Of a DNA stretch of 64,000 bases, positions 7,541 through 62,247 are shown in pieces. A program made the position numbers and the translations under genes. This stretch comes from Chitinophagales bacterium (GTDB taxonomy: Bacteria > Bacteroidota > Bacteroidia > Chitinophagales > Saprospiraceae), in assembly GCA_013299105.1 (NCBI GenBank), contig JAAFJY010000017.1, positions 1-64,000 on the forward strand, read 5' to 3'. The notes under the pieces are model-generated. The model searched no databases. It saw only the letters and a program-made list of their open reading frames with translations, and was not told the DNA's origin. Position 1 is the first letter of the stretch; the number at the start of each line of letters is the position of its first letter.

Positions 7541-7685
7541 GTATTTGAGCTAAAATAAACTGGACGTATTTGCTTTTGAGGTTTAGCAAAAAAAGAACAC
7601 AACCTCCTTCCAGTCAGTTGCTTAAACTGGTAGTGACCTTTTTTCACTAAACCCAAATCCGTCCACCTTATTTCTTTACGCTCCC
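7541..7685 (+). repeat. Long-hairpin dispersed repeat (family 1), copy A
   Basis: One of five copies in the window (others at 14888, 15943, 22103 and 56443). It starts GTATTTGAGCTAAAATAAAC and ends TTACGCTCCC. The left arm (AAAATAAACTGGACGTATTTG, then GGTTTAGCAAAAAAAG) pairs with the right arm (CTTTTTTCACTAAACCCAAA, then TCCGTCCACCTTATTT), with a CAAC/GTTG apex, so almost the whole element folds on itself. This copy has an extra segment after the apex (AAACTGGTAGTGACC). It ends 22 bp before the gene at 7708. Confidence 0.88.
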
Positions 7686-7707
7686 TTGAACACTTAAAAT
7701 TCCCACT

Positions 7708-8641: not shown

Positions 8642-8804
8642 GTCAACGTGATGGTCAAAATCACGGTCAAAATCGTGTTGGCAATCTGTGAAAATCCGTT
8701 TAATTCGTGTTCATCCGTGTTCCCATCCCGCGAAGCGGGGCAAAAAGATTAGTGGCTCTTCGGAGTAACAAAGTTGCGAATTGAAAAGGTTTATTCGTGG
8801 CTTG
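8642..8804 (+). repeat. Dispersed repeat family 3, copy 1
   Basis: The left half is TGTCAACGTGATGGTCAAAA, followed by AATCCGTTTAATTCGTGTTCA. A GC hairpin follows (CCCGC-GAA-GCGGG at 8727-8739), and the end is TTTATTCGTGGCTTGT. Related copies lie at 48857, 49075, 50674 (minus) and 56583 (minus). This copy is the most diverged in the central ATCCGCGTCATCCGCG block. It ends 4 bp from the stop codon of the convergent acyltransferase gene. Confidence 0.75.
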
Positions 8805-8808
8805 TCAC

Positions 8809-12164: not shown

Positions 12165-12387
12165 TTGACCTACTTTTTTCAGCTATTGATCTTCAAAGGG
12201 CTGCCTTCTGCAATCGATTGCAGCGTGGAATGTGCATTGTATGTAACTTGGTGCTCACAAAATCGGACTCTTTTGATTTTTCACCCTTTTTGCTCGAACT
12301 TATTTTTGGTGAAACTTAACCGAATGTAAGCAGGTCAAGTATTCACTTTTTGACTGCAAGCTTTCTTTGCCCAAACAGGATCACAAC

Positions 12388-14781: not shown

Positions 14782-14887
14782 GTTGTTAAAGGACTGTTTA
14801 TATTTCAACATCTTTTCGCCGATAGTGTTGGAAATAAAACATTTTCAACACTATTTTTCCACTATTTTTTCTGGATTTTGTACCTGA

Positions 14888-15016
14888 GTATTTGAGCTAA
14901 AATAAGATAGACATCTTTGTTTTCGAGGTTTAGCAAAAAAAAACAACTTCCTTTCATCCAGTTGCTTTTCTTTTTTCACTAAACCCAAACCTGTCCACCT
15001 TATTTTTTTACGCTCC
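14888..15016 (+). repeat. Long-hairpin dispersed repeat (family 1), copy B
   Basis: Starts GTATTTGAGCTAAAATAAG and ends TTTTTTACGCTCC. Left arm AGACATCTTTG pairs with the right arm CAAACCTGTCC, with the apex CAACTTCC...AGTTG. Relative to copies A and D, the G of GGACG is changed to A on one arm and the matching C to T on the other. It fills most of the gap between the mqnD stop and the GHL10 start, ending 4 bp before the mqnD stop codon. Confidence 0.88.
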
Positions 15017-15863: not shown

Positions 15864-15942
15864 AATCTATAAACGTTTTGTACAACAAATGTAGGAACAG
15901 CTTGAATTCCATCCGTGTTCAATCAGATCTTTCATTTCATTC

Positions 15943-16077
15943 GTATTTGAGCTAAGATAAAGTAAACTAATTTGCTTTTGAGGTTTGGCAAAAAAAGAAC
16001 ACAACTTCCTTTCATCCAGTTAGTTTTCTTTTTTCACTAAACCCAAATCAGTTTACCTTATTTTTTTACGCTCCCTT
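15943..16077 (+). repeat. Long-hairpin dispersed repeat (family 1), copy C
   Basis: Starts GTATTTGAGCTAAGATAAAG and ends TTACGCTCCCTT. Here the arm segments read TAAACTAATTTG and CAAATCAGTTTA, instead of TGGACG.ATTTG/CAAATCCGTCCA in copies A and D. Several bases have changed on both arms in a paired way. It lies between the divergent mqnD and pseudouridine synthase genes and ends 15 bp before the latter. Confidence 0.88.
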
Positions 16078-22092: not shown

Positions 22093-22102
22093 AAAAATAC
22101 AT

Positions 22103-22236
22103 AGTATTTGAGCTAAAATAAACTGGACGTATTTGCTTTTGAGATTTAGCAAAAAAAGAACACAACTTCCTTTCATCCAGTTGTTTTTCTTTTTTCACTA
22201 AACCCAAATCCGTCCACCTTATTTTTTTACGCTCCC
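22103..22236 (+). repeat. Long-hairpin dispersed repeat (family 1), copy D
   Basis: The cleanest copy. GAGC-TAAAATAAACTGGACG on the left faces CGTCCACCTTATTTTTTTACGCTC on the right. GATTTAGCAAAAAAAGAA faces TTTTTTCACTAAACCC, and the apex CAACT...AGTTG closes an 11-nt loop. It separates the response regulator stop from the kinase start inside what looks like one operon, so it would be transcribed as a very long stem. It ends 23 bp before the regulator stop codon. Confidence 0.92.
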
Positions 22237-22259
22237 ATAGGTGAAACAGCGAAAAAGAA

Positions 22260-42515: not shown

Positions 42516-44726
42516 TCATAATTTCTTCTGAATAGCACTTCGCAACTTATTTTTTTCAAGTTGATACTCCTCTCTTTTCAATGTACCAGCAGCGTGTTCA
42601 TTCTCCAACTCAGTGTACCGCCCCATGAAATTCACATACTCTTCGCTTTCTTCGGGAAAAAACTGAATGGCTTCCTCTATTTTGTCTTCGCTCAATTTTT
42701 GCTTGATCGCTCGCTTGTCCAGGTCATCCATTGACCTCAACAAACGCCTTTCCATTTGAAAATCGTGAAGCAGCTTGTCAACATTGACCATTTGAAAATG
42801 CAACTGGCACTGCACTGCTGGAGCGTTTTGTTCTTTGGCGCTCAAAAGCATATTGTAGGAAAAAAAATAGGGATTTTCCGAACCTTCGCATTTGGGGCAA
42901 ATGCAAGGAACCTTTTTTCTCACTGCATTTTCATCCTGCGAAAACTTGGGGTAGGACTTGTGCAAATTGTCAATTTCATCCATCACGATGTTCCTCAAAT
43001 CGCGGGCATCGGGGCCAATCGCCTGCAAGTGTAAGCCTTTGGGGTCCTTAAACATTTCTTCTAGCAGTAAAGTCGATTTCCCTCTTTTGAAAATGGCCCC
43101 AGCTTGCCAGGCATCGTGGCGATCGTCTTCCAGGTAGCGGTGCAAACGAACGACGAGTCGGGCAATGATCCCCTTGGGCATAAAATCGTATTCGTACCGC
43201 AATTGCAAAGCGCCCTTAGGCTTCCAGTTTTGGGCCTTCTCAGGTTGTTCTTCGCTCAACATTTGAGGAGCCAGGTAAGCTTCTTCCGTTTCATTGAGGC
43301 GATAACAAATTTCAAATTTACGCATCAACTCCAGCAATTCGTCGGCCATTTCCACATGTTGGGCGCGGTAGTGCTGACCACTGGGGTCTGCCCAAATATC
43401 AAGGGCATCTTGGCGCGTAAAATAGCCTCGCTTGTCTTGTACTTTCCTCGAATCCAAAACCTGATAGACTCCATCGGTGGCCCATTCACTGTCCAAAATC
43501 ACCGTTTTGTTCAAAAAACTGAGGTTTTGGAAGTGCAAAATGGCTCCCAAATCGTGTAAGTCGCGGCTGATCTTCAGGGCTTCTATTTGATCTTGCCTGA
43601 AGGCGAGACAGTATTTCAGGTATTTTTTAAGGCTGATGAATGGCTTTTGTTTTTCAGCACGTACTTCCTGTAATTTGCGGCGAAGATTTACCCGATTGGC
43701 TGGCCAATCTGCACCGACATGTTCCAGCTCAATCAGCGTTTCTTCGATGTCTTTTTTTAACTTGTTGAGTTTGTCCTTATCTTTACTCAAATCAAGGCTG
43801 TGCGTACTTTTCAATTGTGGAAACTGGTCTTGCAGTTGCCCGAAACTGATCCTGGGGCCACGCCCGCTCTTTTCGTTTTGCACCAGGATAACCGGGCTAT
43901 TTCCCCCCAATAATTCAATGAATTGCAGCCAATAACTGTAATCCTCTTCCTTGCGCAAGTCGATTACGACCACGTACAAAGAGCGGGTGGTCAGAAAAAA
44001 TTGATGGGTGGAATGGTAAATCTCTTGCCCGCCAAAATCCCACAGGTGTGCCGTAAAAGTTTGGTCATCTGCACAACTGAAGGTATGGTCTTTCACATCA
44101 ATGCCCTGCGTGCTTTCATTTTCTCCTGGCATGACCGCACCAATGCCATCCAGCAATTTGCGCAACAAGGTGGTTTTACCCGCTCCACCTGCGCCCAAAA
44201 TCAATACCTTGGCTTCGTAGAGCTTTAGGCCACCCTGCTTTCTGATGTTGCGCAAATGCTCCGCAATCGCAAACCTTCCCCGCGCCACAATCTCCGGCGG
44301 CGGGTTTTTCAAATTGGGATTGCCTGATAAAAAAACATGCTCCAAGTTCTCTGCATTGGGTGAAAACTGTAAATCCACCAATTGGTTGTCGCACAAATCC
44401 AGGTATTGTAACTTATTCATGCGCTCCAATCCCGGCAAATGGGTCAATTTGTTGCCGCGCAGGTTGAGGGCTTCCAGGTTTTCCAGGTCCAGTAGGGGCT
44501 GGATCTTGGCCCAGTCGGCATCATTCAAGCCCCGGCCCGCCAGGTTGAGGCCAGTAATCTTTCCATTGTTTTCAAGGTAAAGGGCTTGCCAGGGGGAGGA
44601 TTTTTCTTTGCTTTTAGCTGGATTGTGCAAGCAAGGCATGACCGCCCAAGCCGGGTTACGGCCCTGCAATGGGGTGGCTTGCAGGGGAAAAGAGAGCAGG
44701 GCTTGGAGTTGGGCTTGGGTTGACAT
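42516..44726 (-). CDS. LRR-Roc-COR (ROCO) GTPase with C-terminal EAD-like domain
   Basis: A 736-aa protein. Leucine-rich repeats (about 55-150: LENLEALNLRGNKLTHLPGL) precede a Roc GTPase (about 170-335) with P-loop LILGAGGAGKTTLLR and switch WDFGGQEIYHSTHQFFL, then a COR region (about 365-600). A CICPKCEG pair-of-Cys motif (about 605) may bind metal. The last about 70 residues (KLSEDKIEEAIQFFPEESEE; GTLKREEYQLEKNKLRSAI) look like an effector-associated domain of the EAD11 type (helical, ending with an RNRI-like motif). Such domains recruit effectors in bacterial NTPase conflict systems. The neighbouring HRDC and DGR-like genes support that reading. It is plausibly a GTP-dependent switch that oligomerises on sensing a signal. 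Confidence 0.85.
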   Translation of the reverse strand: MSTQAQLQALLSFPLQATPLQGRNPAWAVMPCLHNPAKSKEKSSPWQALYLENNGKITGLNLAGRGLNDADWAKIQPLLDLENLEALNLRGNKLTHLPGLERMNKLQYLDLCDNQLVDLQFSPNAENLEHVFLSGNPNLKNPPPEIVARGRFAIAEHLRNIRKQGGLKLYEAKVLILGAGGAGKTTLLRKLLDGIGAVMPGENESTQGIDVKDHTFSCADDQTFTAHLWDFGGQEIYHSTHQFFLTTRSLYVVVIDLRKEEDYSYWLQFIELLGGNSPVILVQNEKSGRGPRISFGQLQDQFPQLKSTHSLDLSKDKDKLNKLKKDIEETLIELEHVGADWPANRVNLRRKLQEVRAEKQKPFISLKKYLKYCLAFRQDQIEALKISRDLHDLGAILHFQNLSFLNKTVILDSEWATDGVYQVLDSRKVQDKRGYFTRQDALDIWADPSGQHYRAQHVEMADELLELMRKFEICYRLNETEEAYLAPQMLSEEQPEKAQNWKPKGALQLRYEYDFMPKGIIARLVVRLHRYLEDDRHDAWQAGAIFKRGKSTLLLEEMFKDPKGLHLQAIGPDARDLRNIVMDEIDNLHKSYPKFSQDENAVRKKVPCICPKCEGSENPYFFSYNMLLSAKEQNAPAVQCQLHFQMVNVDKLLHDFQMERRLLRSMDDLDKRAIKQKLSEDKIEEAIQFFPEESEEYVNFMGRYTELENEHAAGTLKREEYQLEKNKLRSAIQKKL

Positions 44727-47408: not shown

Positions 47409-47486
47409 TACAGTGACAAAAAAGGCAAATTTCGTCACTGTATGGAAAGACAAAAATGCTTATCTTTGTCTTTACACACAGTGACG
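47409..47486 (+). promoter_or_regulatory. TACAGTGAC operator-like boxes upstream of the DUF4143 ATPase
   Basis: A perfect inverted pair, TACAGTGAC (47409-47417) and GTCACTGTA (47434-47442), plus a third CACAGTGACG at 47477-47486 just before the start codon. A fourth box is at 48793-48801 after the gene. Repeated boxes of one sequence around a gene suggest a DNA-binding regulator site; the regulator is unknown. Confidence 0.5.
47461..47468 (+). promoter_or_regulatory. Bacteroidota -7 promoter element (TATCTTTG)
   Basis: TATCTTTG matches the TAnnTTTG consensus of Bacteroidota promoters. It lies 20 bp before the ATG at 47489 and between two TACAGTGAC boxes, so a protein bound to them would block or recruit polymerase. 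I see no convincing -33 TTTG partner. Confidence 0.5.
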
Positions 47487-47488
47487 AT

Positions 47489-48760
47489 ATGGATAAAAAG
47501 CAAATTTTCAGCACCATTATTGCGGATGCCATTGCCAAAAAATACGACCAGAGCCTTCCCCGCATGGTTTCGATCCCCTTGGATGTGCCCAAAATCATCT
47601 CCATCATCGGTCCCAGGCGAGCGGGGAAAACCCACCTGATGTACTACACGATCCAAGAGCTGCGCAAGACGGTTCCTGCGGATCGCCTGGTTTACATTAA
47701 TTTTGAAGACGACCGCCTTTTCCCCATGCAACTGGAAGAGATGGAAAACCTGGTACAAGCTTATTACGAAATGTACCCAGGCAATAAAGACCAGCAAGTA
47801 TGGTTCTTTTTTGACGAGATTCAGGAGGTGTCGAATTGGGAAAAATTTGTGCGCAGACTTTCAGATACGGAACAATGTAGGATTTACATCACGGGTTCCT
47901 CTTCAAAGATGTTGAGTAGGGAGTTGGCCAGTGGCCTGCGCGGACGTACCCTCACCTACGAAGTACTGCCACTTAATTTTGCTGAATTCCTGGCTTTTAA
48001 CCACATTGAAGCGGCGGTGAATGGCTCCAAAGCCCAAGCCGAAATGCTGCATTGGTTTGATCGATGGTTGAAACAAGGTGGGTTTCCTGAATTGGTATTC
48101 TTGCCTCAAGACTTGCATCGCCAGACCATCTCTGAATACCTCGATTTGATGCTGTACCGGGATTTGACCGAGCGATTTGACTTGCGAAACCCAGCTATGC
48201 TAAAGTACCTATTGAAATACGTGCTTTCCAATTTGGCCCAATCATTGAGTACCACGCGTATTTTCAATGATCTGAAGTCGATGGGCTACAGCATTGGGAA
48301 AAACACGGTTTTTGACTACCTCTCTCACCTTGAAGAAGCTTTTGTGCTTTTTCAGGTCCCCATCTGGCATCGCTCGGTAAAAAACCAGGCGCGAAATCCC
48401 AACAAATTTTACTGCATTGACCCTGCGTTCAAATACGTGGTTCACCATACCAACGATATTGGTCGGGTGTTTGAAAACGCTATTTTTTTGCACCTGCGTC
48501 AAAAAGGGCTTGAAATCCATTACCTCTTGAATGGGCAAGAGGTCGATTTTTACTGGAAAGACGGCCCCCCAATCAATGCTTGTTGGGAAATGACCCAGCT
48601 CTCCACCAAAAACCGGGAAGTAGAGGGGATGTTTTCCGCTTTAGAAAAATACAACTTGCCCGAAGGAATCATCCTGACCCGCGACCACCAAGAGGAAATT
48701 CAACGCAATGGCCGTCGAATCCAGGTCCAGCCAGCCTGGCGCTATTTTCTGGAGCATTAG
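47489..48760 (+). CDS. AAA ATPase with DUF4143 (AAA_14-type)
   Basis: A 423-aa protein from MDKKQIFSTIIADAIAKKYD (47489); the track's 11 extra codons overlap a promoter box. The P-loop is IIGPRRAGKTHLMY, Walker B VWFFFDEIQEVSNWEKF, sensor region YITGSSSKMLSRELASGLRG. C-terminal DUF4143 (about 215-390) has QTISEYLDLMLYRDLTERFD and GQEVDFYWKDG, a nuclease-fold-like end. These stand-alone ATPases are widespread and poorly understood, sometimes transferred horizontally. The flanking boxes suggest its own regulation. Confidence 0.88.
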   Translation: MDKKQIFSTIIADAIAKKYDQSLPRMVSIPLDVPKIISIIGPRRAGKTHLMYYTIQELRKTVPADRLVYINFEDDRLFPMQLEEMENLVQAYYEMYPGNKDQQVWFFFDEIQEVSNWEKFVRRLSDTEQCRIYITGSSSKMLSRELASGLRGRTLTYEVLPLNFAEFLAFNHIEAAVNGSKAQAEMLHWFDRWLKQGGFPELVFLPQDLHRQTISEYLDLMLYRDLTERFDLRNPAMLKYLLKYVLSNLAQSLSTTRIFNDLKSMGYSIGKNTVFDYLSHLEEAFVLFQVPIWHRSVKNQARNPNKFYCIDPAFKYVVHHTNDIGRVFENAIFLHLRQKGLEIHYLLNGQEVDFYWKDGPPINACWEMTQLSTKNREVEGMFSALEKYNLPEGIILTRDHQEEIQRNGRRIQVQPAWRYFLEH

Positions 48761-48801: not shown

Positions 48802-48856
48802 GAATAACGGCTGAAAATAAAACGCTCCAATCTTTACGCCTAATTGATAGCAACGC

Positions 48857-48980
48857 ATGTCAACGTCATGGTCAACGTCAAATTAGCAACCGTGAAAAAC
48901 CGTGTAATCCGCGTCATCCGCGTCATCCGCGTGCTAAAAAACAAGCTTGCGGAGCAAGCAAAAGAATATTCATCCGTAGC
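48857..48980 (+). repeat. Dispersed repeat family 3, copy 2
   Basis: GTCAACGTCATGGTCAACGT, then ATCCGCGTCATCCGCGTCAT, CCGCGTGCTAAAAA, hairpin GCTTGC-GGA-GCAAGC (48945-48959), and ATTCATCCGTAGC. The ATCCGCGTC unit is repeated in tandem here. Confidence 0.85.
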
Positions 48981-49074: not shown

Positions 49075-49218
49075 GGTCAAAATCATGGGGTCAACGTCAT
49101 GCTGGAAATCCGCGCAAACCTGCGTCATCCGCGTCATCCGCGTGCTAAAAACAGCACCGCGTGAGCGGGGCAAAGGAAGGCAACGCAGTTGCCCACTCGC
49201 AAAAATTTATCCGAGGCT
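49075..49218 (+). repeat. Dispersed repeat family 3, copy 3
   Basis: GGTCAAAATCATGGGGTCAA, TGCGTCATCCGCGTCATCCG, CGTGCTAAAAA, hairpin CCGC-GTGA-GCGG (49157-49168), a second hairpin GGCAAC-GCA-GTTGCC (49179-49193), and TTTATCCGAGGCT. It is the fullest copy and reaches the stop region of the permease gene. Confidence 0.85.
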
Positions 49219-50673: not shown

Positions 50674-50825
50674 AGGCCACAAATAAAATGTACGTAAATC
50701 GCAACTGCGTTGCTTTAATTGCCTCGCTGCGCGAGGTTATTTTTAGCACGCGGATGACGCGGATGACGCAGATTTTCGCGGATTACCAACATGATTTTGA
50801 CTGTGATTTTGACCATGACGTTGAC
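50674..50825 (-). repeat. Dispersed repeat family 3, copy 4
   Basis: Reverse orientation. On the minus strand it reads CGTCATGGTCAAAATCACAG, AATCCGCGAAAATCTGCGTC, ATCCGCGTGCTAAAAATAAC, hairpin CCTCGC-GCA-GCGAGG and GCAAC-GCA-GTTGC. It occupies the gap upstream of the PSD1 gene. Confidence 0.85.
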
Positions 50826-51036: not shown

Positions 51037-53856
51037 ATGAAAATGCCAAACTTCCTGGGGAAAAACCCCCTGATTCTTGCAGTGTGCCTGCTCTTGGCGG
51101 TCTTATTATTGGCCAACTTCATCAATTTTGGGGGCGCATCCATCCATTATGCCACCCAGGTCAAGCCCATTCTCAACAAAAAATGCATTTCCTGTCACGG
51201 TGGGGTGAAACAAAATGCCGAATTCAGCATGATGACCCGTGAGCACCTGCTGCGCCCCAACGAATCGGGTAAACCCGCCGTGGTGCCCGGCAAACCCGAC
51301 GAGAGTGAGCTGATGAAGCGCATTCAATCCCACGACCCTGAAGAGCGCATGCCCTACGAGGAAGCCCCCCTCAGCAAAAAAGAAATCTCGATCCTGCGCC
51401 AATGGATCAAAGAAGGCGCACAATGGGGCGAACACTGGGCTTATGTGCCCGTGCAGCCCGTAAAAGTACCCAAAGCCAAGGGTTTTCTGGGCATTTTTCC
51501 CGCCCCCAAAAATCAATGGGTACAAAACGACATCGACTGGTTCATCCTTGATCGCCTGAAAAAAGAAGGGCTGAGTAATTCGCCAATAGCCGACAAGGCT
51601 ACTTTGTTGCGCCGGGTCAGCCTGGACTTGACTGGCCAGCCTGCGCCCGCATCATTGGCCAAAAAATACTTGGCGGATCAATCGCCAAAAGCATATGAAA
51701 ACCTGGTTGACTCCCTGCTCGCTTTGCCTGCTTACGGCGAACGCTGGGCCAGCATGTGGCTCGACCTGGCCCGCTATGCCGATACCAAGGGCTACGAACG
51801 CGACTACAAACGCGACATTTGGCGCTACCGCGATTGGCTGATCCGCACCCTGAACAAGGACATGCCTTACAATGATTTTTTGACCGAACAACTGGCGGGC
51901 GACCTGCTGCCAAATCCAACTGATGATCAATTTTTAGCCACCGCTTTTCACCGCAACACCCCCACCAACGACGAAGGGGGGACCCTGAACGAAGAATACC
52001 GGGTAGTGGCCCTGATCGATCGGGTGAATACTACTTTTGAGGCCATTCTGGGCACTACTTTTGCCTGTACGCAGTGTCATGGGCACCCTTATGAAGCCAT
52101 TTTTCACGATGAGTACTACAAGGTAATGGCTTACTTCAACAACAGCCGCGACGAGGACACCAACGAGGACTACCCCCTGCTGCGGCATTACCCAAAAGCC
52201 GATAGCCTGAAACTCGATAGCTTGTGCCGTTGGGTAGCCCAAAACGACTCGCCCAAACGCAGTATGGAGATTTACACCTTTCTCAAAACCCTGCAACCTT
52301 CGTTCTATTCCATCGCCTCGGATCAGTTTGTCAATTGTGAACTGTACGATACCAAGTGGCTCAACATGCGCAACCACGCCAGCGCTCGTTTTCAGGAAGT
52401 GGACCTCACGGGCAAAAGCCAGCTCATCCTGCCACTTTGTGGGGTGGTTGGTGGGGGCCGTTTCAGCATTCATTTGGACAGCTTGAATGGGCCTTTGCTC
52501 TTGAGTATCGGAATGGAAAAAACGGCCAACTATTGCGATACCAAGGCTTATGATTTCCAGCCCGTGAAAGGCAAGCACCGTTTGTTTTTCCGCTACGAAA
52601 ACCCCGCTTTGGCCAGCGATCCGCGCAAATCAGGCATCGGCTTCAACTGGTTTTATTTCACCAACCCATTCCCAGGGCAAGGCAAACCGGGTTACGAGCA
52701 AAAACTGGCCGATTATTGGGCCCTCATTCGCCAAGACCCGCCTACCACGCCCATCATGATGGACAATCCCGCTACTTTGCCCCGCCCCAACCACGTATTC
52801 GAGCGCGGCAATTGGTTGGTAAAAGGCCAAAAAGTGAGCCCTGGAGTGCCCGCCTTGCTCGGCAAATTACCTGCCGGAGCCCCCAGCAATCGCCTGGGCT
52901 TTGCGCAATGGGTCACCGACCCCAAAAACCCACTGACCGCCCGCACGATGGTGAACCGCATGTGGGAGCAAGTGTTTGGGCAGGGCCTGGCCGAAACCTT
53001 GGAAGACTTGGGCTCGCAGGGCATCCCCCCTACCCACCCCGAATTGATGGACTACCTGGCCTGGCAATTCGTTCACGAGCAAGGCTGGAGCATGAAAAAA
53101 CTGCTGCGCGAAATGGTCCTTTCGGCCACCTACCGCCAATCCTCGGTGGGTAATCCTAACTTGGTAGAAAAAGACCCGACCAACAAATTCTACGCCCGTG
53201 GCCCCAGGGTACGCCTCAGCGCCGAGCAAATCCGCGACCAAGCTCTGAGCCTGGCGGGCTTGTTGAGCCACAAAAAGTACGGCCCCGGCGTGATGCCCTA
53301 CCAACCCGATGGCATCTGGAAATCGCCTTACAACAGCGACAATTGGATACAGAGCGAAGGAGAAGACCGCTACCGCCGGGCAGTTTATACTTATTGCAAG
53401 CGCTCCAGTGGCTATCCTTCCATGCTCACTTTTGATGGGGCCACCCGAGCCGTTTGTACGGCCCGCCGCATCCGCACCAATACACCTTTGCAAGCCCTGG
53501 TCACGCTCAACGATCCGGTTTACATCGAAGCGGCCAAGGCTTTTGCCCAAAAAATGAAAAAACTGGGCGGCAAGGAGGTCAAAAATCAAATTAAAAAAGG
53601 ATACGGCCTGGCGTTGGGCAAACACATCGAGGAGCAAAAGTTGCAAACCTTGGTCGGGCTTTATGACAAAGCCAAAGCCAAATATGCGGCGGACCCCAAG
53701 CTGGTTCAAGCCTTGTTTGCGGAGCCTGAGCCCAAAAATGCCGCTGAAAAGAAACCTGCAAGCCTGCCGATGCCAGCTTACAGCGCGGAGGATGCCGCCT
53801 TGACCCTGGTGGCCAATGCCCTATTGAACCTTGACGAGTTGGTCAGCAAAAATTAA
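51037..53856 (+). CDS. PSD1 / planctomycete-type cytochrome c protein
   Basis: A 939-aa exported protein from MKMPNFLGKNPLILAVCLLL (51037); the track start at 50791 runs through a repeat and is rejected. An N-terminal membrane anchor is followed by a PSCyt1 haem domain with CISCHGG (about 48), a DUF1549/PSCyt2 domain (about 150-350) with RYADTKGYERDYKRDIWRYR and a second haem-type FACTQCHGHP, and a DUF1553/PSD1 domain (about 600-880) with RTMVNRMWEQVFGQGLAETL and ATYRQSSVGNPNLV. The set is common in planctomycetes and some Bacteroidota and is linked to polysaccharide or sugar oxidation, but biochemistry is thin. First gene of an operon with DUF1501 and a TIM-barrel protein. Confidence 0.9.
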   Translation: MKMPNFLGKNPLILAVCLLLAVLLLANFINFGGASIHYATQVKPILNKKCISCHGGVKQNAEFSMMTREHLLRPNESGKPAVVPGKPDESELMKRIQSHDPEERMPYEEAPLSKKEISILRQWIKEGAQWGEHWAYVPVQPVKVPKAKGFLGIFPAPKNQWVQNDIDWFILDRLKKEGLSNSPIADKATLLRRVSLDLTGQPAPASLAKKYLADQSPKAYENLVDSLLALPAYGERWASMWLDLARYADTKGYERDYKRDIWRYRDWLIRTLNKDMPYNDFLTEQLAGDLLPNPTDDQFLATAFHRNTPTNDEGGTLNEEYRVVALIDRVNTTFEAILGTTFACTQCHGHPYEAIFHDEYYKVMAYFNNSRDEDTNEDYPLLRHYPKADSLKLDSLCRWVAQNDSPKRSMEIYTFLKTLQPSFYSIASDQFVNCELYDTKWLNMRNHASARFQEVDLTGKSQLILPLCGVVGGGRFSIHLDSLNGPLLLSIGMEKTANYCDTKAYDFQPVKGKHRLFFRYENPALASDPRKSGIGFNWFYFTNPFPGQGKPGYEQKLADYWALIRQDPPTTPIMMDNPATLPRPNHVFERGNWLVKGQKVSPGVPALLGKLPAGAPSNRLGFAQWVTDPKNPLTARTMVNRMWEQVFGQGLAETLEDLGSQGIPPTHPELMDYLAWQFVHEQGWSMKKLLREMVLSATYRQSSVGNPNLVEKDPTNKFYARGPRVRLSAEQIRDQALSLAGLLSHKKYGPGVMPYQPDGIWKSPYNSDNWIQSEGEDRYRRAVYTYCKRSSGYPSMLTFDGATRAVCTARRIRTNTPLQALVTLNDPVYIEAAKAFAQKMKKLGGKEVKNQIKKGYGLALGKHIEEQKLQTLVGLYDKAKAKYAADPKLVQALFAEPEPKNAAEKKPASLPMPAYSAEDAALTLVANALLNLDELVSKN

Positions 53857-53862
53857 AAAGTC

Positions 53863-55365
53863 ATGTCCAGAAGAATAAACTTGCAAGACGAGTTGCGCCA
53901 AGAAAGCGCAGCATTAAATACCCGCCGCCTGTTTCTCAAAAACTGTGCGATGGGCTTGGGTGCGGCGGCTATGGGTAGCCTTTTGAGTGCTTGTGGGGGT
54001 GGCAGCATTACCAATACGGGCAATGCCATTGTTTTTGACCCCGCCAATCCACTGGCTCCCCGGCCACCCCATTTTCCGGGCAAGGCCAAGTCGGTGATTT
54101 ACCTGCACATGGCGGGTGCGCCTTCGCAGCTCGACTTGTTTGACTACAAGCCTACCCTAGCCAAACTCAATGGCCAGGCTTGTCCCGAATCACTGTTGGC
54201 GGGCAAAACCTTTGCTTTCATTCGCGGGGTGCCAAAACTGCTGGGGCCGCAGTCCAACTTCATGCAAAGGGGCCAAAGTGGGGCTTGGATTTCAGACTAC
54301 CTGCCCCACTTGAGCACCATCGCCGATGACCTGGCCTTCCTCAAAGCCGTGAACACCGACCAGTTCAACCATGCACCAGCCCAGTTGCTCATGCACACGG
54401 GCTCGGCGCGCTTGGGGCGGCCCAGCATTGGCTCTTGGGCCACTTATGGTTTGGGGTCAGAAAACAGCAATTTGCCGGGTTTCGTGGTGCTGACTTCGGG
54501 CGGACAAAACCCCGATGCGGGCAAAGCGGTATGGGGCAGTGGGTTTTTACCCTCGGTTTACCAAGGTGTGCAGTGCCGCTCGGCGGGCGAACCCGTTTTG
54601 TACCTGCAAGACCCCCAGGGCATCGACCGCGACCTGCGCCAAGCTTCCATCGAGGCCATCAATGACGTGAACCGCAAAACCTACGAAGAATTCAAGGACC
54701 CGGAAATCCTCTCCCGGATTTCGCAGTACGAAATGGCTTACCGCATGCAAGTGACCGCGCCGGAGGTGATGAACATCAACGACGAGCCAGCTTACATCCA
54801 CGAAATGTACGGCACCAAACCCGGCCAAGAGGCTTTCGCCAACAACGTTTTGCTGGCCCGTAAACTGGTGGAAAAAGGCGTAAGATTCGTACAGCTCTTC
54901 GACTGGGGTTGGGACGCACACGGCACTGGTGCGGACACCGCCATCGACGTGGGTTTCATCAACAAGTGCCGCGAAATCGACAAATCCATCACTGCCCTGA
55001 TCCTTGACCTCAAACAACGGGGCTTACTCGAAGAAACCCTGGTGGTATGGGGCTCAGAATTTGGCCGCACGCCCATGCAAGAAAACCGCAATGGCCTGGA
55101 GTTGCCCTTCAAAGGCCGCGACCACCACGCCGACGCCTTCACGATGTGGATGTGCGGCGGGGGCATCAAAGCGGGTGCTTCGCACGGCGAGACCGACGAA
55201 ATTGGTTTCAATGCGGTGAGTGGCAAGGTCTCGGTTTACGACGTGCAAGCCACGATCTTGAACCAATTGGGTTTCGACCACGAAAAATTCACCTATCAGT
55301 TCCAAGGCCGTCCTTTCCGCCTTACGGATGTGGAAGGGGCGGTCATTAAGCAGGTTGTTGCCTGA
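53863..55365 (+). CDS. DUF1501 protein with Tat-type lipoprotein signal
   Basis: A 500-aa protein six bp downstream of the PSD1 gene. The N-terminus has a twin-arginine-like NTRRLFLKNCAMGLGAAAM and then LLSACGGGS, so it may be a Tat-exported lipoprotein. The DUF1501 body (alkaline-phosphatase/sulfatase-like fold) has KSVIYLHMAGAPSQLDLFDY, then FMQRGQSGAWISDYLPHL, FDWGWDAHGTG, TLVVWGSEFGRTPMQENRNG and GRDHHADAFTMWMCGGGI. The Asp/His metal residues typical of the fold are present. It is conserved next to PSD1 genes and is presumed to work with them on the same exported substrate. Confidence 0.9.
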   Translation: MSRRINLQDELRQESAALNTRRLFLKNCAMGLGAAAMGSLLSACGGGSITNTGNAIVFDPANPLAPRPPHFPGKAKSVIYLHMAGAPSQLDLFDYKPTLAKLNGQACPESLLAGKTFAFIRGVPKLLGPQSNFMQRGQSGAWISDYLPHLSTIADDLAFLKAVNTDQFNHAPAQLLMHTGSARLGRPSIGSWATYGLGSENSNLPGFVVLTSGGQNPDAGKAVWGSGFLPSVYQGVQCRSAGEPVLYLQDPQGIDRDLRQASIEAINDVNRKTYEEFKDPEILSRISQYEMAYRMQVTAPEVMNINDEPAYIHEMYGTKPGQEAFANNVLLARKLVEKGVRFVQLFDWGWDAHGTGADTAIDVGFINKCREIDKSITALILDLKQRGLLEETLVVWGSEFGRTPMQENRNGLELPFKGRDHHADAFTMWMCGGGIKAGASHGETDEIGFNAVSGKVSVYDVQATILNQLGFDHEKFTYQFQGRPFRLTDVEGAVIKQVVA

Positions 55366-55391: not shown

Positions 55392-56318
55392 ATGCCTACC
55401 AATCGCAGAACCTTCCTCAGCAACAGCATGGCTTTGGCCGGGGGTATGCTGATGGATCCTTTCCAAAGCGTGGAAAAGGACAAAGTCAATTTTCACATTC
55501 CCGCTGCATTTTCCCTCAAATTCCTGGCTACCAATTGGGGTTTTGAGGGCACTTGGGACCAATTTTGTGAAAAAGCCAAAAAAGCGGGCTACGACGGCTT
55601 CGAAGCCTGGGCACCTAGTGACGAAAAAGGCCGCAACGAAATGCAAGCCGCCGCTGCGAAATACGGCTTGAGCTACGGTCTGTTGGTTGGAGCGGGAGAT
55701 AGCGATCCTACTAAAAACAAGGCTGCCCTCGAAGCCCAAATGAAATTTGCCTTGCCCATGAAGCCTTTGTTCTTCAACTGTCATTCGGGTAAAGACTACT
55801 TCAGCCAGGAACAAGCGATTGGCATTTTGGACATGGCCAACAAAATAGGCAAGGCCGCTGGCATCCCCGTTTACCACGAAACCCACCGGGGCCGCATTTG
55901 CTACGCGGCACCAGTGACCAAGGCATTGATGGAAAAACTGCCTGACTTGCGCCTCACCCTCGATATTTCGCACTGGTGCTGCGTGCACGAATCGCTACTC
56001 GAAGAACAGACCGAAACCGTAGCGATGGCCCTCAGCCGTACCGACCACATCCACTCGAGAGTAGGCCACCAGGAAGGGCCACAGGTCACCGACCCACGTG
56101 CGCCCGAATGGGCCAGCGCCCTCAAAGCCCACCTCGCCTGGTGGGACAACGTGGTAGAAATGAAAGTCAAAGCAGGCCAGGGACTGACCGTCCTGACCGA
56201 ATTTGGCCCACCCAACTACCTACCCACCGTACCCTACACCCTGCAACCCTTGGCTGACCAATGGGGCATCAATGTGTATATGAAGGATTTGCTGAAGGCG
56301 CGGTACGCGGGGAAATGA
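55392..56318 (+). CDS. Sugar phosphate isomerase/epimerase-like TIM-barrel protein
   Basis: A 308-aa protein, 26 bp after the DUF1501 gene. The N-terminus MPTNRRTFLSNSMALAGG resembles a Tat signal. The barrel has ATNWGFEGTWDQFCEKAKKA, GYDGFEAWAPSD, IPVYHETHRGR, LTLDISHWCCVHE (metal-binding Asp/His) and HIHSRVGHQEGPQV, then LTVLTEFGPPNY, as in xylose-isomerase-like TIM barrels. The exported location and operon suggest a sugar epimerase or lyase used with PSD1/DUF1501. The exact reaction is not determinable. The normal next gene (DUF2231 cytochrome) is 2.7 kb away because of an inserted cassette. Confidence 0.87.
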   Translation: MPTNRRTFLSNSMALAGGMLMDPFQSVEKDKVNFHIPAAFSLKFLATNWGFEGTWDQFCEKAKKAGYDGFEAWAPSDEKGRNEMQAAAAKYGLSYGLLVGAGDSDPTKNKAALEAQMKFALPMKPLFFNCHSGKDYFSQEQAIGILDMANKIGKAAGIPVYHETHRGRICYAAPVTKALMEKLPDLRLTLDISHWCCVHESLLEEQTETVAMALSRTDHIHSRVGHQEGPQVTDPRAPEWASALKAHLAWWDNVVEMKVKAGQGLTVLTEFGPPNYLPTVPYTLQPLADQWGINVYMKDLLKARYAGK

Positions 56319-56321
56319 TCA

Positions 56322-56356
56322 GAAGTTGAAAGGTTGAAGGGTTGAAGGGTTGAAAA
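56322..56356 (+). repeat. Short tandem repeat GTTGAAGG
   Basis: GTTGAAAGGTTGAAGGGTTGAAGGGTTGAAA-type decamer/nonamer repeats just after the TIM-barrel stop. Probably slippage-prone; no coding role seen. Confidence 0.7.
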
Positions 56357-56442
56357 GAGGGGCCTTCACTTAACTTTAGGCATGGAGCAATAGATAAGTA
56401 TTCAACTAATTGTAGCAAATGTTTGTAGAAACAGCTTGCTAA

Positions 56443-56575
56443 GGGAGCGTAAAGGAATAAGGTAGGCCAATTTTGGTTTAGTGAAAAAAGAAAAGCAACT
56501 GACTGAAAGAAAGTGGTGTTCTTTTTTTGTTAAGCCTCAAAGAAAATGTGGTTACCGTATTTTAGCCCAAATACT
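56443..56575 (-). repeat. Long-hairpin dispersed repeat (family 1), copy E
   Basis: Reverse orientation: GGGAGCGTAAAGGAATAAGG on the plus strand and, at the other end, GTATTTTAGCCCAAATACT. GGTTTAGTGAAAAAAG faces CTTTTTTTGTTAAGCCTC, with a CAACT apex. It is the most diverged copy but keeps both ends and the hairpin. It lies just before family 3 copy 5. Confidence 0.82.
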
Positions 56576-56582
56576 AAGTAAC

Positions 56583-56711
56583 AAGCCACGAATAAATCTT
56601 ACCAAATCGCAACTGCGTTGCCTCGCTGCGCAAGGCTGTCTTTAGCACGCGGATGACGCGGATTTAGCGGATTTTCGCGGATTTCCAACACGACGTTGAC
56701 TGTTACGTTGA
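56583..56711 (-). repeat. Dispersed repeat family 3, copy 5
   Basis: On the minus strand: TCAACGTCGTGTTGGAAATC, CGCGAAAATCCGCTAAATCC, GCGTCATCCGCGTGCTAAAG, hairpin GCCTTGC-GCA-GCGAGGC (one G-U pair), GCAAC-GCA-GTTGC, and ATTTATTCGTGGCTTGT. It sits 122 bp upstream of the AAA ATPase. Confidence 0.83.
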
Positions 56712-56832
56712 TATGCGTGTATCTTAAAAACTGGAAAGGTTTATTTTTGACCCGTTACTAATGTTGTGATTTACAAAAAGTTTGGTTAGAAAAACCGTAA
56801 CTTTGAGTGCATCCACAAAAAATGCCAAGTGC

Positions 56833-58209
56833 ATGATAACCAAACTGGAAATATCTGGCTTCAAATCATTTTCCAATTTCAGCGTTGATCTAGCCCCCTT
56901 TGTGGTAGTAGCGGGGCTTAATGGTGCGGGTAAAAGCAACCTGTTCGATGCCATTAGTCTATTGTCTGATCTGGCGAAAATGAATATCAGAGAAGCTTTT
57001 AGTAAGCAGCGAGGCTCCGCAATAGAGTTGTTTACTCATTATGATAAGGACCAAACGGCTACCGAAATGGAATTCGCAGTAGAAATGCTGCTTGATAAAA
57101 CCATTCGTGACGCTTGGGGTAGTGAAACAAAGCTGGATTACACCCGCTTGCGCTACGAATTAAAAATCGAGCGCAGGCCAGACAAGCATGGCATTGAGCG
57201 ACTTTTTGTCAAACACGAAGCCTTGGTACCTATCCCTAGCACTAACGACCAATGGTACAACACTTACGTAGGACCTTACAACAAATGCTGGCGGCCAAAC
57301 AAGTCAAATAACCTTGAATTCTTTATTGCAACTGGCTTTCGTGGAAACAAAGAAGAGATTGTCATTTTGCAAAAAGGGATGAATGATGACACTCATCGAG
57401 AGCAAAATATTGAATACTTGGAAAGTACCATGCTCAGTGGGGCAAGTGATATTCAATACGCCCATGCTTTTGCTGCCCGCGAGGCTATGCGCAATTGGAA
57501 CCTTTTACATCTCAATCCAGAAGAATTAAGTAAGCCTTCTGCCAGCCTGCAATCATCAGACCAGATGGGGCCTGATGGTGCTGGACTAGCCTCGACCTTG
57601 TACCGCATCAAGCAAGAAAGCCCAGTAGCGTTCAATGACATCTCCATAGAATTAATGAGCCTGGTTCCCGACATCTCGATGATTGATGTCAAGCTTGATC
57701 CTAATGAGGACAATTATATAATCAGCCTCGATATGGAGGACGGCCGTACCTTTAGTTCAAAGGTTTTTTCAGAAGGTACCTTGCGAATGCTGGCACTCTT
57801 GACGCTCAAACACGATGAAAAACACCAGGGAGTTTTGTGTTTTGAGGAGCCTGAAAATGGTGTCAATCCAAGACGAATTGCCCAACTGAGCTCATTATTG
57901 CGTGATTTGAGTACCATTTTCCAAGATGACCCTGATGCTGATTTTCCGCTTCGACAAGTGTTGATCAACACTCATTCGCCCTTGTTGGTAGGAGAGGTCA
58001 AAAAAATGAAAAACTTTGATCAATGGGGCATGCTGTTGTTTGCCCGTCAAGTTACCCAAGTTAAAAAAGGTCACAAGTGGAAGCATACTTTAATCACCCC
58101 AGTGAGCAGTGAACAGGGAAACCTGTTTTGGGAGCGAAACATGACTCAGGGTTTGCAATCGGTTAATCGGGAGGAGTTCAGACACTACCTTGAAACCGCA
58201 AAGTTTTAA
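56833..58209 (+). CDS. AAA (RecF/OLD-like) ATPase of a two-gene cassette
   Basis: A 458-aa protein from MITKLEISGFKSFSNFSVDL (56833), the usual start for this class; the track's 17 extra residues are rejected. The P-loop VVVAGLNGAGKSNLFDAI is followed by an ABC-like signature VFSEGTLRMLALLTL (about 313), Walker B GVLCFEEPENGVNPRR (about 338) and an H-loop INTHSPLLV. The middle resembles AAA15/AAA21-type SMC-like ATPases. There is no fused TOPRIM, but the next gene supplies one, as in OLD-like and PARIS-like anti-phage modules. Stop and next start are 20 bp apart. Confidence 0.87.
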   Translation: MITKLEISGFKSFSNFSVDLAPFVVVAGLNGAGKSNLFDAISLLSDLAKMNIREAFSKQRGSAIELFTHYDKDQTATEMEFAVEMLLDKTIRDAWGSETKLDYTRLRYELKIERRPDKHGIERLFVKHEALVPIPSTNDQWYNTYVGPYNKCWRPNKSNNLEFFIATGFRGNKEEIVILQKGMNDDTHREQNIEYLESTMLSGASDIQYAHAFAAREAMRNWNLLHLNPEELSKPSASLQSSDQMGPDGAGLASTLYRIKQESPVAFNDISIELMSLVPDISMIDVKLDPNEDNYIISLDMEDGRTFSSKVFSEGTLRMLALLTLKHDEKHQGVLCFEEPENGVNPRRIAQLSSLLRDLSTIFQDDPDADFPLRQVLINTHSPLLVGEVKKMKNFDQWGMLLFARQVTQVKKGHKWKHTLITPVSSEQGNLFWERNMTQGLQSVNREEFRHYLETAKF

Positions 58210-58228
58210 TACCCCCAAGCCTGATCAA

Positions 58229-58912
58229 ATGAACACATTGTACAGCTCTTTTTGGGGAGAGGGTGTAACGGATGAGCGATTCTATCCAATACTGATTAAA
58301 AGGGTGTTATATGAGTTGTTGTACCAGTGTGCGAGGGGACAATGGGACGTTGAAACACCTATTACTTTACAAAGTGAACAGGATACTTTTGTTGCGTCAG
58401 TACTTGATATTGCCAGGCAGTCGACGGGATCCACATTGGTTTTCGTGCATACTGATGCAGACGCTCCAGCCCTTGAAAAGGTCTTGCAGGATAAAATTAC
58501 TCCAGCTTTGAAAGAGATCACAAAGCTAGATGATAATACAGCCTGTAAATATGTAATCCCTATTCTACCTGTTACCAAGACTGAAAATTGGAAACTAGCT
58601 GATACAGCAGCTATGGAACGGATTTTAGGTGTTGATCTCGATCGGCAAGCCCTTGGTTTGAACAAAAGCGCAAAAAACCTTGAAGAATACGCTGATTCAA
58701 AACAACTCTTGCAAGCTGTAATCCATGCGGCAAGGATGCAAAGAAGGAGCAAGAATTCTTTCGATCCTGAAGTTTTTGACATCGCTCTGGCTAATAAAAT
58801 AAGCCTTCAGGCATTAAATAGGTTCGATTCATTCAAGTATTTTTTGGAGGGCTTGAAGAAGGCTTTGATTGACCTAAACATCATTGAAGAGGACTGTTCT
58901 CCTCGTTTTTGA
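58229..58912 (+). CDS. TOPRIM-like DUF4276-type protein of the cassette
   Basis: A 227-aa protein from MNTLYSSFWGEGVTDERFYP (58229); the longer track ORF overlaps the ATPase end. The TOPRIM-like core reads Glu in FWGEGVTDERF (residue 11) and a DxD in VFVHTDADAPA (76, 78), matching DUF4276/TOPRIM nuclease-like proteins. A helical tail follows (TKTENWKLADTAAMERILG; LLQAVIHAARMQRRS). With the upstream ATPase it forms a probable nuclease-ATPase pair, by analogy with Gabija, OLD or PARIS. Activity is untested. The codon usage looks more A/T-rich than in the neighbouring PSD1 genes. Confidence 0.8.
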   Translation: MNTLYSSFWGEGVTDERFYPILIKRVLYELLYQCARGQWDVETPITLQSEQDTFVASVLDIARQSTGSTLVFVHTDADAPALEKVLQDKITPALKEITKLDDNTACKYVIPILPVTKTENWKLADTAAMERILGVDLDRQALGLNKSAKNLEEYADSKQLLQAVIHAARMQRRSKNSFDPEVFDIALANKISLQALNRFDSFKYFLEGLKKALIDLNIIEEDCSPRF

Positions 58913-58982: not shown

Positions 58983-60464
58983 TTGAAAAAAACGGAAAAA
59001 CCAATCACTTTGGAAAACTGGAGTCCATTCATCGGCCATTTTCACCCTTTGTTGGTGCATTTACCCCTGGGCATTTTGCTTTTGGGGGTCTTGTTCAGTG
59101 TCTTTGGCCGCTTTGAACGATATGCGCATTTAAAAGCCGCTGCGCCTGCCACTTTGTTTTGGGGCACTTTGGGGGCGATTTTCTCCTGCATCACAGGCTA
59201 TTTGCTGTCTTTGAGCGGCGAATACGAAGGCTTGACTCTGGAAAGGCACAAATACCTGGGCATTGGGGTAGCGGTGGCCGGCATCCTTCTTTATGTGGTA
59301 GAAAAAGCCAAATTGAGGCCGCTCCTGGCCAATTTCAGCGCCTTGTTGCTGTTGGGCTTGCTCATGGGGGCGGGGCACCTGGGGGGCAGCCTGACGCATG
59401 GTGGCGATTACCTCACCCAAGCCTTGCCTCCTGGCATCAAAGCCCAATTGGGGCTGCAAGCAGAAGATGGTGAAACTGCCGAAGCTAAGCGCCCTTCATT
59501 AGCCGAAGCCAGTGCTTACCAGGCAATTGTTGCGCCCATTTTCAAGGAAAAATGCCAAAATTGTCATGGCGCTGAAAAGCAAAAAGGCAAACTGCGGCTT
59601 GACAGCCCCAATGCTTTGGCTGCTGGTGGAAAAAACGGCCCTGTGCTGTTGGCTGGCAATGCCGATGCAAGTGAATTGATCAAACGCGCCCTGCTGCCAA
59701 CCTCTAACGACAAGCACATGCCCCCCAAAGAAAAGCCCCAACTGAGCGAAGAAGAGATCAAATTGCTGCATTGGTGGATCCAATCGGGGGCGGACTACGC
59801 CAAAAAAGCCGCTGACTTGCCTACCGACCCCGCTATCCAGGGTATGTTGGACAAATACGGCAAAGCAAGTGTTTCAACCGGCGTGGCCCAAATCCTGATC
59901 GACGAGCACCCCAAGGTAGAAGTAAAAGCACCCGACGCCAAGGTCATCGAACAAATGAAAGCCAAGGGCTTGGTGGTCCTGCCATTGGGGCAAAATCAAA
60001 ACTTCCTGAGTCTCAACTTTGTGAATTTCCCCAAGGTCAGCACCAAAGATTTTGCGGCTTTGGCCCCTTTGCAAAAAAACATCGCCTCCTTCAAACTAAG
60101 CGATACCAATATCGACGACGCTGGCCTGGCCGAAGTCGCCAAATTCCCGAATCTGACCAAGTTGTTTTTGGAACGAACCAAAGTCAGCGACGCGGGTCTG
60201 GCCCAACTCAGCAAGCTGCCCCATTTGCAATACCTCAACCTGGTGGGCACCAAAGTGACGGCAAAGGGCCTCTCCAGCCTGATTGCCCTACCAGCCCTGA
60301 AGCAAGTGTACTTGTACCAAAGTGGCTTGACAGCCGCCGATTTCCAAGCCCTGCAAGCCAAAATGCCCAAGGTGCGATTGGATACTGGCGGCTATCGGGT
60401 GCCTACTTTGTACAGTGATACGACTTTGGTGCAGCCACCCAAGGTGAAGGGGTTTTATGAGTAG
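58983..60464 (+). CDS. DUF2231 membrane protein with planctomycete-type cytochrome c and LRR
   Basis: A 493-aa protein starting at TTG (58983); there is no ATG between it and an in-frame TAA at 58965. N-terminal DUF2231 region with about four membrane helices (PFIGHFHPLLVHLPLGILLL, LFWGTLGAIFSCITGYLLSL). A c-type haem motif CQNCHGAE (about 192) lies in a PSCyt1-like domain ending DKHMPPKEKPQLSEEEIKLL. The C-terminus has leucine-rich repeats (LAEVAKFPNLTKLFLERTKV; LSKLPHLQYLNLVGTKV). It is the usual fourth member of PSD1/DUF1501/TIM-barrel operons, here separated by the AAA/TOPRIM cassette. The non-ATG start may reflect a displaced 5' end. Confidence 0.88.
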   Translation: MKKTEKPITLENWSPFIGHFHPLLVHLPLGILLLGVLFSVFGRFERYAHLKAAAPATLFWGTLGAIFSCITGYLLSLSGEYEGLTLERHKYLGIGVAVAGILLYVVEKAKLRPLLANFSALLLLGLLMGAGHLGGSLTHGGDYLTQALPPGIKAQLGLQAEDGETAEAKRPSLAEASAYQAIVAPIFKEKCQNCHGAEKQKGKLRLDSPNALAAGGKNGPVLLAGNADASELIKRALLPTSNDKHMPPKEKPQLSEEEIKLLHWWIQSGADYAKKAADLPTDPAIQGMLDKYGKASVSTGVAQILIDEHPKVEVKAPDAKVIEQMKAKGLVVLPLGQNQNFLSLNFVNFPKVSTKDFAALAPLQKNIASFKLSDTNIDDAGLAEVAKFPNLTKLFLERTKVSDAGLAQLSKLPHLQYLNLVGTKVTAKGLSSLIALPALKQVYLYQSGLTAADFQALQAKMPKVRLDTGGYRVPTLYSDTTLVQPPKVKGFYE

Positions 60465-60699: not shown

Positions 60700-62247
60700 A
60701 TGAAGAAATTACCCATCGGCATACAATCTTTTGAAGAGCTCATCGAAGGGACTTATCTCTATGTTGACAAAACGCAGTTGATCAATCAGCTCGCTACATC
60801 AGGCAAATACTATTTTTTATCTCGTCCGCGCCGATTTGGCAAATCTTTACTACTGGATACGATCAAATCCTTGTTCGAGGGTAAAAAAACACTGTTCTCT
60901 GGCTTGTGGATTGAAGACCAATGGGATTGGGAACGAACCAACCCTGTTTTGCATTTTTCTTTTGATGCCATTGGTTACGATAAATTGGGTTTGGAAGGAG
61001 CCCTCCTTTTTCAACTAAAAAAAATAGCAAGCCTTCATGAAATTGAATTACCTACGGATTCAATTGGCATCCAATTTTCAGAACTCATCCAACAACTGCA
61101 TAAAAAATACGGTAAAGTCGTTATACTCATCGACGAATACGACAAACCCATCATTGATTACTTGGAAAAAAACACCCTTGAACAAGCCAAAATTAACCGC
61201 GAAGTCTTACGCAGTTTTTATGCGGTGCTGAAAAGTTCTGACAAATATTTACAATTGGTTTTTATTACGGGCATTTCAAAATTCGCTCAAGTTTCCATTT
61301 TTTCGCACCTTAACAATCTGAATGACATCACGCTCAATAATCGGTATGCCACTTTGACTGGTTATACTCAATTGGAATTGGAACATTATTTCGAAGACTA
61401 TTTACAAGAAGTGCAAACCTACCTGAATGCCAGCCGCCAACAAGTCTTGGATGAAATGCGCGAGTGGTACAACGGTTACTCCTGGGATGGGGTGCAGCGG
61501 GTGTACAATCCATTCGGTGTTTTGCGCTTTTTTTCGGCCCAGCGTTTCACTAATTTCTGGTTTTCTACGGGCAGTCCGCGTTTTTTGATCGAGCAAATGC
61601 GCAAATGGGAGGTGTTCAACATCGAAAATTCCCCAGCCAATAACACTACATTTGAACGATTCGACCTGGAAAACCTTGATCTCACGTCCTTGCTTTTTCA
61701 AACAGGCTATTTGACCATCAAGGAAATGGACCTTTGGACCGGAGACATGATCCTTGATTATCCAAACAAGGAAGTGCGCCAAAGCATGTACCAGTTTTTG
61801 ATCGATGATTTATCCAAAGATGTGCATCGCACCGATACCGGGCTTACCATCCGCAACCTCAACCAGGCTTTTTTACAAGGGAATCTTGTCCAGGTGCGTG
61901 CAATACTCGATGGTTTACTCGCAGACTTACCCAGCGAAGTTTTTGATAAAAAATCCGAAGGTTTGTATCACGGATTGATCCATTTGGTGTTTAATTATTT
62001 GGGTATGTATGCACAAAGCGAGGTCCACTCTGCACATGGCCGGGCGGATGCGGTCGTACAAACAACCGATGCGGTGTATATTTTTGAGTTCAAATTCAAC
62101 AAGACTGCCGCCGAGGCCCTGGCCCAAATTCAGGAGAAAGCTTATGCAGACAAGTACCGGAGTACCCAGAAAAAACTGATGGGTATTGGTGTCAATTTCA
62201 GTACAGCTGTCAGGGGCATTGACCAGTGGGAGGAAATAGCGCTGTGA
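60700..62247 (+). CDS. AAA-ATPase-like / PD-(D/E)XK nuclease fold protein (PF09820/PF08011 type)
   Basis: A 515-aa protein. N-terminal AAA-ATPase-like domain: LPIGIQSFEELIEGTYLYVD, a P-loop FLSRPRRFGKSLLLD, Walker B VVILIDEYDKPI and FITGISKFAQVSIFS. C-terminal PDDEXK-9-like domain: SEVHSAHGRADAVVQTTDAV, IFEFKFNKTAAEALAQIQ and YRSTQKKLMGIGVNFS. Such proteins occur in many copies in Bacteroidota and are of unknown role, possibly transfer-associated. Gene and start are secure from the promoter box and family pattern. Confidence 0.9.
   Translation: MKKLPIGIQSFEELIEGTYLYVDKTQLINQLATSGKYYFLSRPRRFGKSLLLDTIKSLFEGKKTLFSGLWIEDQWDWERTNPVLHFSFDAIGYDKLGLEGALLFQLKKIASLHEIELPTDSIGIQFSELIQQLHKKYGKVVILIDEYDKPIIDYLEKNTLEQAKINREVLRSFYAVLKSSDKYLQLVFITGISKFAQVSIFSHLNNLNDITLNNRYATLTGYTQLELEHYFEDYLQEVQTYLNASRQQVLDEMREWYNGYSWDGVQRVYNPFGVLRFFSAQRFTNFWFSTGSPRFLIEQMRKWEVFNIENSPANNTTFERFDLENLDLTSLLFQTGYLTIKEMDLWTGDMILDYPNKEVRQSMYQFLIDDLSKDVHRTDTGLTIRNLNQAFLQGNLVQVRAILDGLLADLPSEVFDKKSEGLYHGLIHLVFNYLGMYAQSEVHSAHGRADAVVQTTDAVYIFEFKFNKTAAEALAQIQEKAYADKYRSTQKKLMGIGVNFSTAVRGIDQWEEIAL

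Follow-up and report, generated by a model that had tools for sequence, protein, structure and literature searches.

Gene content of the locus

The window analysed here is the whole stretch of 64,000 nt from a Chitinophagales genome. It carries an operon with the gene order PSD1, DUF1501, TIM barrel, ATPase, DUF4276 and DUF2231/PSCyt1/LRR cytochrome, as the earlier note had described and as was borne out by reading the ORFs and their Pfam domains. The features are as follows:

51037-53856: PSD1 gene
53863-55365: DUF1501 gene
55392-56318, + strand: TIM-barrel (AP_endonuc_2) gene, left host gene
56324-56366, + strand: short GGTTGAAG-type repeats in tandem, just past the TIM-barrel gene, with copies across the genome and elsewhere in the window; the corresponding junction of congener G001 holds related repeats
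56410-56431, + strand: possible scar; 20/22 positions agree with the 3' end of hsdS, which precedes the cassette in congener G003 (suggestive)
56436-56580, + strand: second dispersed repeat family, with copies at 7537-7687, 14878-15016, 15940-16077 and 22098-22240 of the window and elsewhere in the genome
56574-56761, + strand: repeat of about 188 bp, dispersed over intergenic sites, with at least 40 strong genomic copies (77-94%) and several partial ones at other places in the window
56790-56832, + strand: cassette leader with TAnnTTTG (TAACTTTG at 56798-56805); nucleotide homology with the G003 cassette begins at 56790
56833-58209, + strand: HEC-01A, an OLD/SMC-like ABC-type ATPase of 458 aa (PADLOC, Pfam, motifs, AF2/Foldseek)
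58229-58912, + strand: HEC-01B, a DUF4276, TOPRIM-like putative nuclease of 227 aa (PADLOC, motifs, AF2)
58983-60464, + strand: DUF2231/PSCyt1/LRR cytochrome gene with a TTG start only, right host gene

The ATPase ORF begins at ATG 56833, and therefore 56319-56832 is intergenic. A gene pair is indeed present as previously noted, but the span given to it (56319-58912) has to be corrected to the two genes listed above. For the DUF4276 gene, the best start is ATG 58229, 19 nt past the ATPase stop, and the 72%-identical congener uses the same start. The cassette measures about 2.1 kb in the window, or 2.1-2.2 kb when the congener copy is counted. The pair is lower in GC (43.3%) than the operon genes (52.4-56.6%), and also in GC3 (47/39% against 62-69%). 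The TAnnTTTG element in the leader is kept in the alignment with the congener. TAnnTTTG is a -7-like element of Bacteroidota promoters, and the leader element may thus serve as the promoter of the cassette. Compared with the G003 copy, the two genes have dN/dS values of 0.10 and 0.12, which are approximate, with synonymous sites near saturation. The pair is under purifying selection.

Insertion into a conserved operon

The TIM-barrel and DUF2231-cytochrome genes are adjacent without the cassette in all six relatives with a readable junction (G001, G002, G003, G004, G040 and G051, four of them in the same genus; for G002 the junction was read on a contig fragment). In congeners G001, G003 and G004, the gap between the two genes is 7-290 bp. 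The claim that the pair had been inserted into a normally continuous operon held in this comparison, which had been set beforehand: the six-gene order is found in 0/6 relatives. Since the junction is empty in every one of these relatives and the cassette is lower in GC, the gene orders indicate that the four-gene operon is ancestral and that the cassette was acquired in this lineage.

As also noted previously, the cytochrome gene has only TTG starts: there is no in-frame ATG in the first 100 codons, and the only candidates near its start are TTG at 58983 and 59010. In relatives, this gene starts with an ATG that, aligned by eye, falls at about window position 59019. As the window gene lacks this ATG, its original start may have been lost through the insertion.

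The site is no defence island, the sole other PADLOC match among the 22 ORFs at 20-64 kb being PDC-S01 at 47.5 kb. This gene (47456-48757) encodes an AAA_14/DUF4143 ATPase (E 4e-103). A Roc-COR GTPase bearing the effector-associated domain EAD11 is encoded at 42516-44726. The downstream gene at 60700-62247 (AAA-ATPase_like/PDDEXK_9) was rejected as part of the module, having no PADLOC match and being missing at homologous loci.

Flanking repeats

The ~440 bp ahead of the cassette consist mostly of dispersed repeats with dozens of genomic copies, present at other window sites too. The 188-bp repeat stops 71 bp short of the ATPase ATG. It is built of GCGGATTT units, and its window copies lie at 48853-48958, 49090-49218, 50676-50812, 8655-8811 and 56574-56761, with dozens more genome-wide. 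The earlier note had taken the upstream repeats for the footprint of an acquisition. They are real copies of repeat families, but because they occur genome-wide and at intergenic sites without cassettes, they are no insertion footprint by themselves, and this candidate was ruled out. The same TIM/DUF2231 junction is also filled with repeats in the cassette-free G001, where a long inverted repeat (ATGAGTCATCCCGAATTTTT...) lies next to tandem repeats of the TTGAA type (L026:9420-9710). Together, the copies show the repeats to be the mark of a permissive junction, and not an element that carried the cassette. A search for direct repeats flanking the window cassette gave only chance-length matches between the left and right flanks. 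The right flank was likewise ruled out as a repeat, being unique in the genome.

Assignment of the pair to HEC-01

The ATPase matches the PADLOC HEC-01A model PDLC04184 with an E value of 5.3e-129 (residues 1-456/458, profile positions 1-460/464), and the DUF4276 protein matches the HEC-01B model PDLC04210 with an E value of 4.9e-37 (profile positions 1-215/217). The two genes are adjacent on the same strand with 19 nt between them. Since both proteins match these models, the pair is, by profile, a member of the catalogued candidate phage-defence system HEC-01 and not an unknown one. The name HEC-01 (Hma-embedded candidate 1, PADLOC-DB) reportedly comes from a 2024 preprint by Payne et al. To our knowledge, embedding in another defence system, the source of the HEC name, is not demanded of every HEC-01 member. 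At the window locus the neighbours are those of the PSD1 operon, with no other defence system around the pair. Thus, the window proteins fit the HEC-01A and HEC-01B models over nearly their full length and in the same order, whereas the pair lies outside any Hma operon, alone in the PSD1/DUF1501 operon. HEC stands for Hma-embedded candidate (PMC12988326, PMC10855318).

By its profiles, the pair is also related to MAD3/MAD4. The ATPase matches PADLOC mad3 and NCBIfam MAD3, and the HEC-01B relative L098 matches mad4. However, the MAD3 score of 151 bits is far under the cut-off of 420, and no other MADS genes adjoin the window pair, whose neighbours belong to the PSD1 operon. Membership of MADS, i.e. 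MAD3 over its cut-off together with companion mad genes, was therefore not found.

The ATPase is an ABC-type protein

The earlier note had called the ATPase an AAA (AAA+) protein, which did not stand. Pfam AAA_21 matches it with 97.7 bits (cut-off 27), and profile comparison retrieves the retron Eco8 OLD nuclease (E 4e-6 for the C-terminal half of the ATPase), OLD and SMC proteins and, weakly, AriA. Foldseek matches of the AF2 model (pLDDT 85) are SMC heads, PtuA, Rad50 and retron Eco8. Because of these profile and model matches, the ATPase is classified as ABC-type, OLD/SMC-like rather than AAA+. The ATPases of PARIS and OLD are likewise ABC-type and not AAA+ (PMC12839542). The Walker A (GLNGAGKSN), signature-like (SEGTLR), Walker B (FEEPENG) and H-loop (NTHSP) motifs are intact; across 13 homologues, Walker A, SEGTLR, EEPENG and NTHSP are invariant or nearly so.

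HEC-01B is a likely TOPRIM protein

HEC-01B contains the intact motifs GEGVTDERF and HTDAD. Among its homologues EGxTDxRF and HxDxD are kept, with E10, D14 and D75 invariant and D77 nearly so across 12 homologues (residues numbered as in the 226-residue row of the alignment). In the AF2 model (pLDDT 90), the order of strands and helices fits TOPRIM, and EG..D.RF and H.D.D come after strands 1 and 3 (E5-8 and E69-73), as in TOPRIM domains. HEC-01B thus shows the features by which TOPRIM domains are recognized: a catalytic Glu motif where strand 1 ends and a DxD where strand 3 ends. When compared by hhalign to OLD TOPRIM domains, HEC-01B scores weakly (E 0.006, probability 6), but the motifs are aligned. 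The relative L098, which matches PADLOC HEC-01B as well as mad4, passes the cut-off of the Pfam OLD-like TOPRIM family PF20469. Pfam DUF4276 scores 28.0 bits on HEC-01B, slightly below the cut-off of 30.2, while the congener copy passes with 32.9. Foldseek with the HEC-01B model gave no TOPRIM structure and only poor matches (TM about 0.3), and a sequence comparison with solved structures gave no match. Based on the motifs and remote profiles, and not on the fold search, HEC-01B is likely a TOPRIM protein.

Homologues in restriction operons and elsewhere

The closest homologue, in G003 of the same genus (77% and 72% identity), sits in a type I restriction operon, with hsdS on one side and hsdR on the other. 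Nucleotide homology to this cassette spans 56790-58896 at 75%. The next homologue, in G096 of another genus (46% and 50% identity), occupies the equivalent hsdS|hsdR position in a type I operon. The window copy forms a group with the G003 and G096 copies, with support of 97/96 for the ATPase and 100/98 for HEC-01B. At a further locus (L042), the pair lies between mod-like and res-like genes of a type III restriction operon. Since the nearest relatives are found inside restriction-modification operons, a defence role is supported, in agreement with the defence link proposed earlier and with the nearly full-length HEC-01A/B matches. At L042, a 43-bp repeat (93%) is present inside both the mod-like and res-like frames around the pair (9760-9802 and 12331-12373).

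In G003, the cassette is flanked by a 29-bp direct repeat of the hsdR start, with 28/29 positions identical (L044:7941-7969 and 10159-10187), and hsdS and hsdR are directly adjacent in about ten related operons. Empty sites are therefore seen for both insertion places, the TIM|cytochrome junction and the hsdS|hsdR slot. Fic-like and AbiLii-like defence candidates sit in the same slot of related operons; embedded systems are known from the hsdS|hsdR gap (PMC12255303). The inserts upstream of hsdR vary, with AbiLii-like, PDC-S04/SoFic-like and PDC-S24 genes at L102, L116, L122 and L130. In G003, a trypsin-like/NB-ARC/TPR STAND-type protein is encoded immediately upstream of the type I operon (L044:1589-4948).

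The other HEC-01 homologues in the family are mostly orphans between housekeeping genes and not in defence islands. A PADLOC scan of 85 neighbour proteins covered the 25 most frequent families among the matches, so that single defence genes beside orphans may be missed. Two species (G060 and G260) share an orphan copy at an identical location, and one orphan adjoins ruvB and exonuclease III, as read from ORF translations. The distribution is patchy, with homologues in 14/298 genomes of the family and 5/396 of the phylum. No relatives of HEC-01B were found in viral contigs, and plasmids gave one weak match; a homologue of the ATPase is present in two unannotated faecal phage contigs.

The orphan beside ruvB and exonuclease III, together with the resemblance of the ATPase to SMC/RecF/Rad50 heads, would fit a housekeeping role in DNA repair or recombination, as a RecF/Rad50-type module with a TOPRIM partner (RecF-RecR-like), and no function in defence. 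However, the pair is rare and patchy, occupies unrelated insertion sites including the inside of restriction operons, and has a GC content below that of the host genes. A repair function is thus highly improbable.

Proposed function

The reading we prefer, with a probability of roughly 0.68, is that of a two-gene HEC-01 candidate defence module, gained by horizontal transfer and equipped with its own leader, in which an ATPase sensor would hold a TOPRIM nuclease until triggered by phage, as in PARIS. In PARIS, the TOPRIM tRNase AriB stays sequestered by the ABC ATPase AriA for as long as no phage trigger, such as Ocr, has been sensed (PMC12409363, PMC12839542). Because of this analogy, the probable sensor is HEC-01A, with HEC-01B as the probable effector. 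HEC-01A, as an ABC-type OLD-family ATPase, would keep HEC-01B inactive, and a phage component or anti-restriction protein would release or activate it. HEC-01B, as a putative TOPRIM-type nuclease, would then cut nucleic acid as its substrate and stop the infection, like AriA/AriB, thereby protecting against phages.

The earlier note had proposed a PARIS/Gabija/OLD logic with different proteins. The resemblance to PARIS and OLD stands, but the pair is not outside the known systems, being HEC-01. Like PARIS, it combines an OLD/ABC-type ATPase with a separate TOPRIM-like protein, and the ATPase matches the PADLOC AriA model and, weakly, solved AriA chains. In contrast to PARIS, HEC-01B has no AriB match and is recognized by HEC-01B models only, and the HEC-01A model scores far above AriA. 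The C-terminal half of the ATPase resembles the retron Eco8 OLD, whereas here the TOPRIM part is on a separate gene instead of one chain, and neither a reverse transcriptase nor an ncRNA component was identified at the locus. AbiLi/AbiLii and RloA/RloB have the same architecture, and AbiLii-like genes are among the inserts between hsdS and hsdR of related operons, but HEC-01B matches neither AbiLii nor RloB models. Gabija (GajA/GajB) also has an OLD-type ATPase and a TOPRIM; however, in the window these are unfused and no UvrD-like GajB helicase adjoins them.

A two-gene operon with a small nuclease-like partner might also be a toxin-antitoxin-like or selfish module, with HEC-01B as toxin and HEC-01A as antitoxin, kept mainly by addiction and without a specific phage trigger. 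One toxin-antitoxin network includes AAA+TOPRIM pairs (PMC10440598), and the orphan shared by G060 and G260 at the same place is consistent with such maintenance. This is quite unlikely, as embedding in restriction operons favours defence and the same architecture is phage-triggered in PARIS.

Possible passage through an hsd operon

The location of the nearest relatives between hsdS and hsdR, together with the sensing of Ocr by PARIS (PMC12409363, PMC12839542), raises a more specific version, in which HEC-01 would guard restriction-modification by sensing Ocr-like anti-restriction proteins of phages and killing or arresting the cell once restriction is blocked. The window copy would then be a stand-alone descendant from an hsd operon. 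In its favour, the unique part of the left flank contains the 20/22 match to the hsdS 3' end, which ranks first among 3654 control 70-mers from the window and has no other copy in the genome. Its score of 34 is reached by 1/3000 shuffles, but the next control scores are near (32 and 31), and the match was found post hoc. Therefore, the 22-nt match is suggestive of passage through an hsd operon at most. Most HEC-01 copies lie outside restriction operons, and a search of this genome at E 1e-150 gave no close relative of the G003 hsdR. A guard of restriction-modification is therefore doubtful.

The cassette could also be self-contained and move between the hsdS|hsdR slot and ordinary operons, with G003 showing the entry (29-bp duplication) and the window copy bearing the 22-nt hsdS scar of a guard that has left its restriction operon and works alone. 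We consider this itinerary rather unlikely.

No new kind of system is added here; what is new is that a known candidate module has entered a conserved operon. With a metabolic operon occupied in one species and the hsdS|hsdR slot in a congener, the cassette offers a before/after case for the spread of small ATPase-nuclease defence candidates, and its nearest copies inside restriction operons point to a possible role as backup to restriction, like PARIS. The genome to which the window belongs carries a second, distant HEC-01 pair (G000:C21:21498-23540; L053:16499-18580), with 41% and 32-34% identity, alone between unrelated genes.
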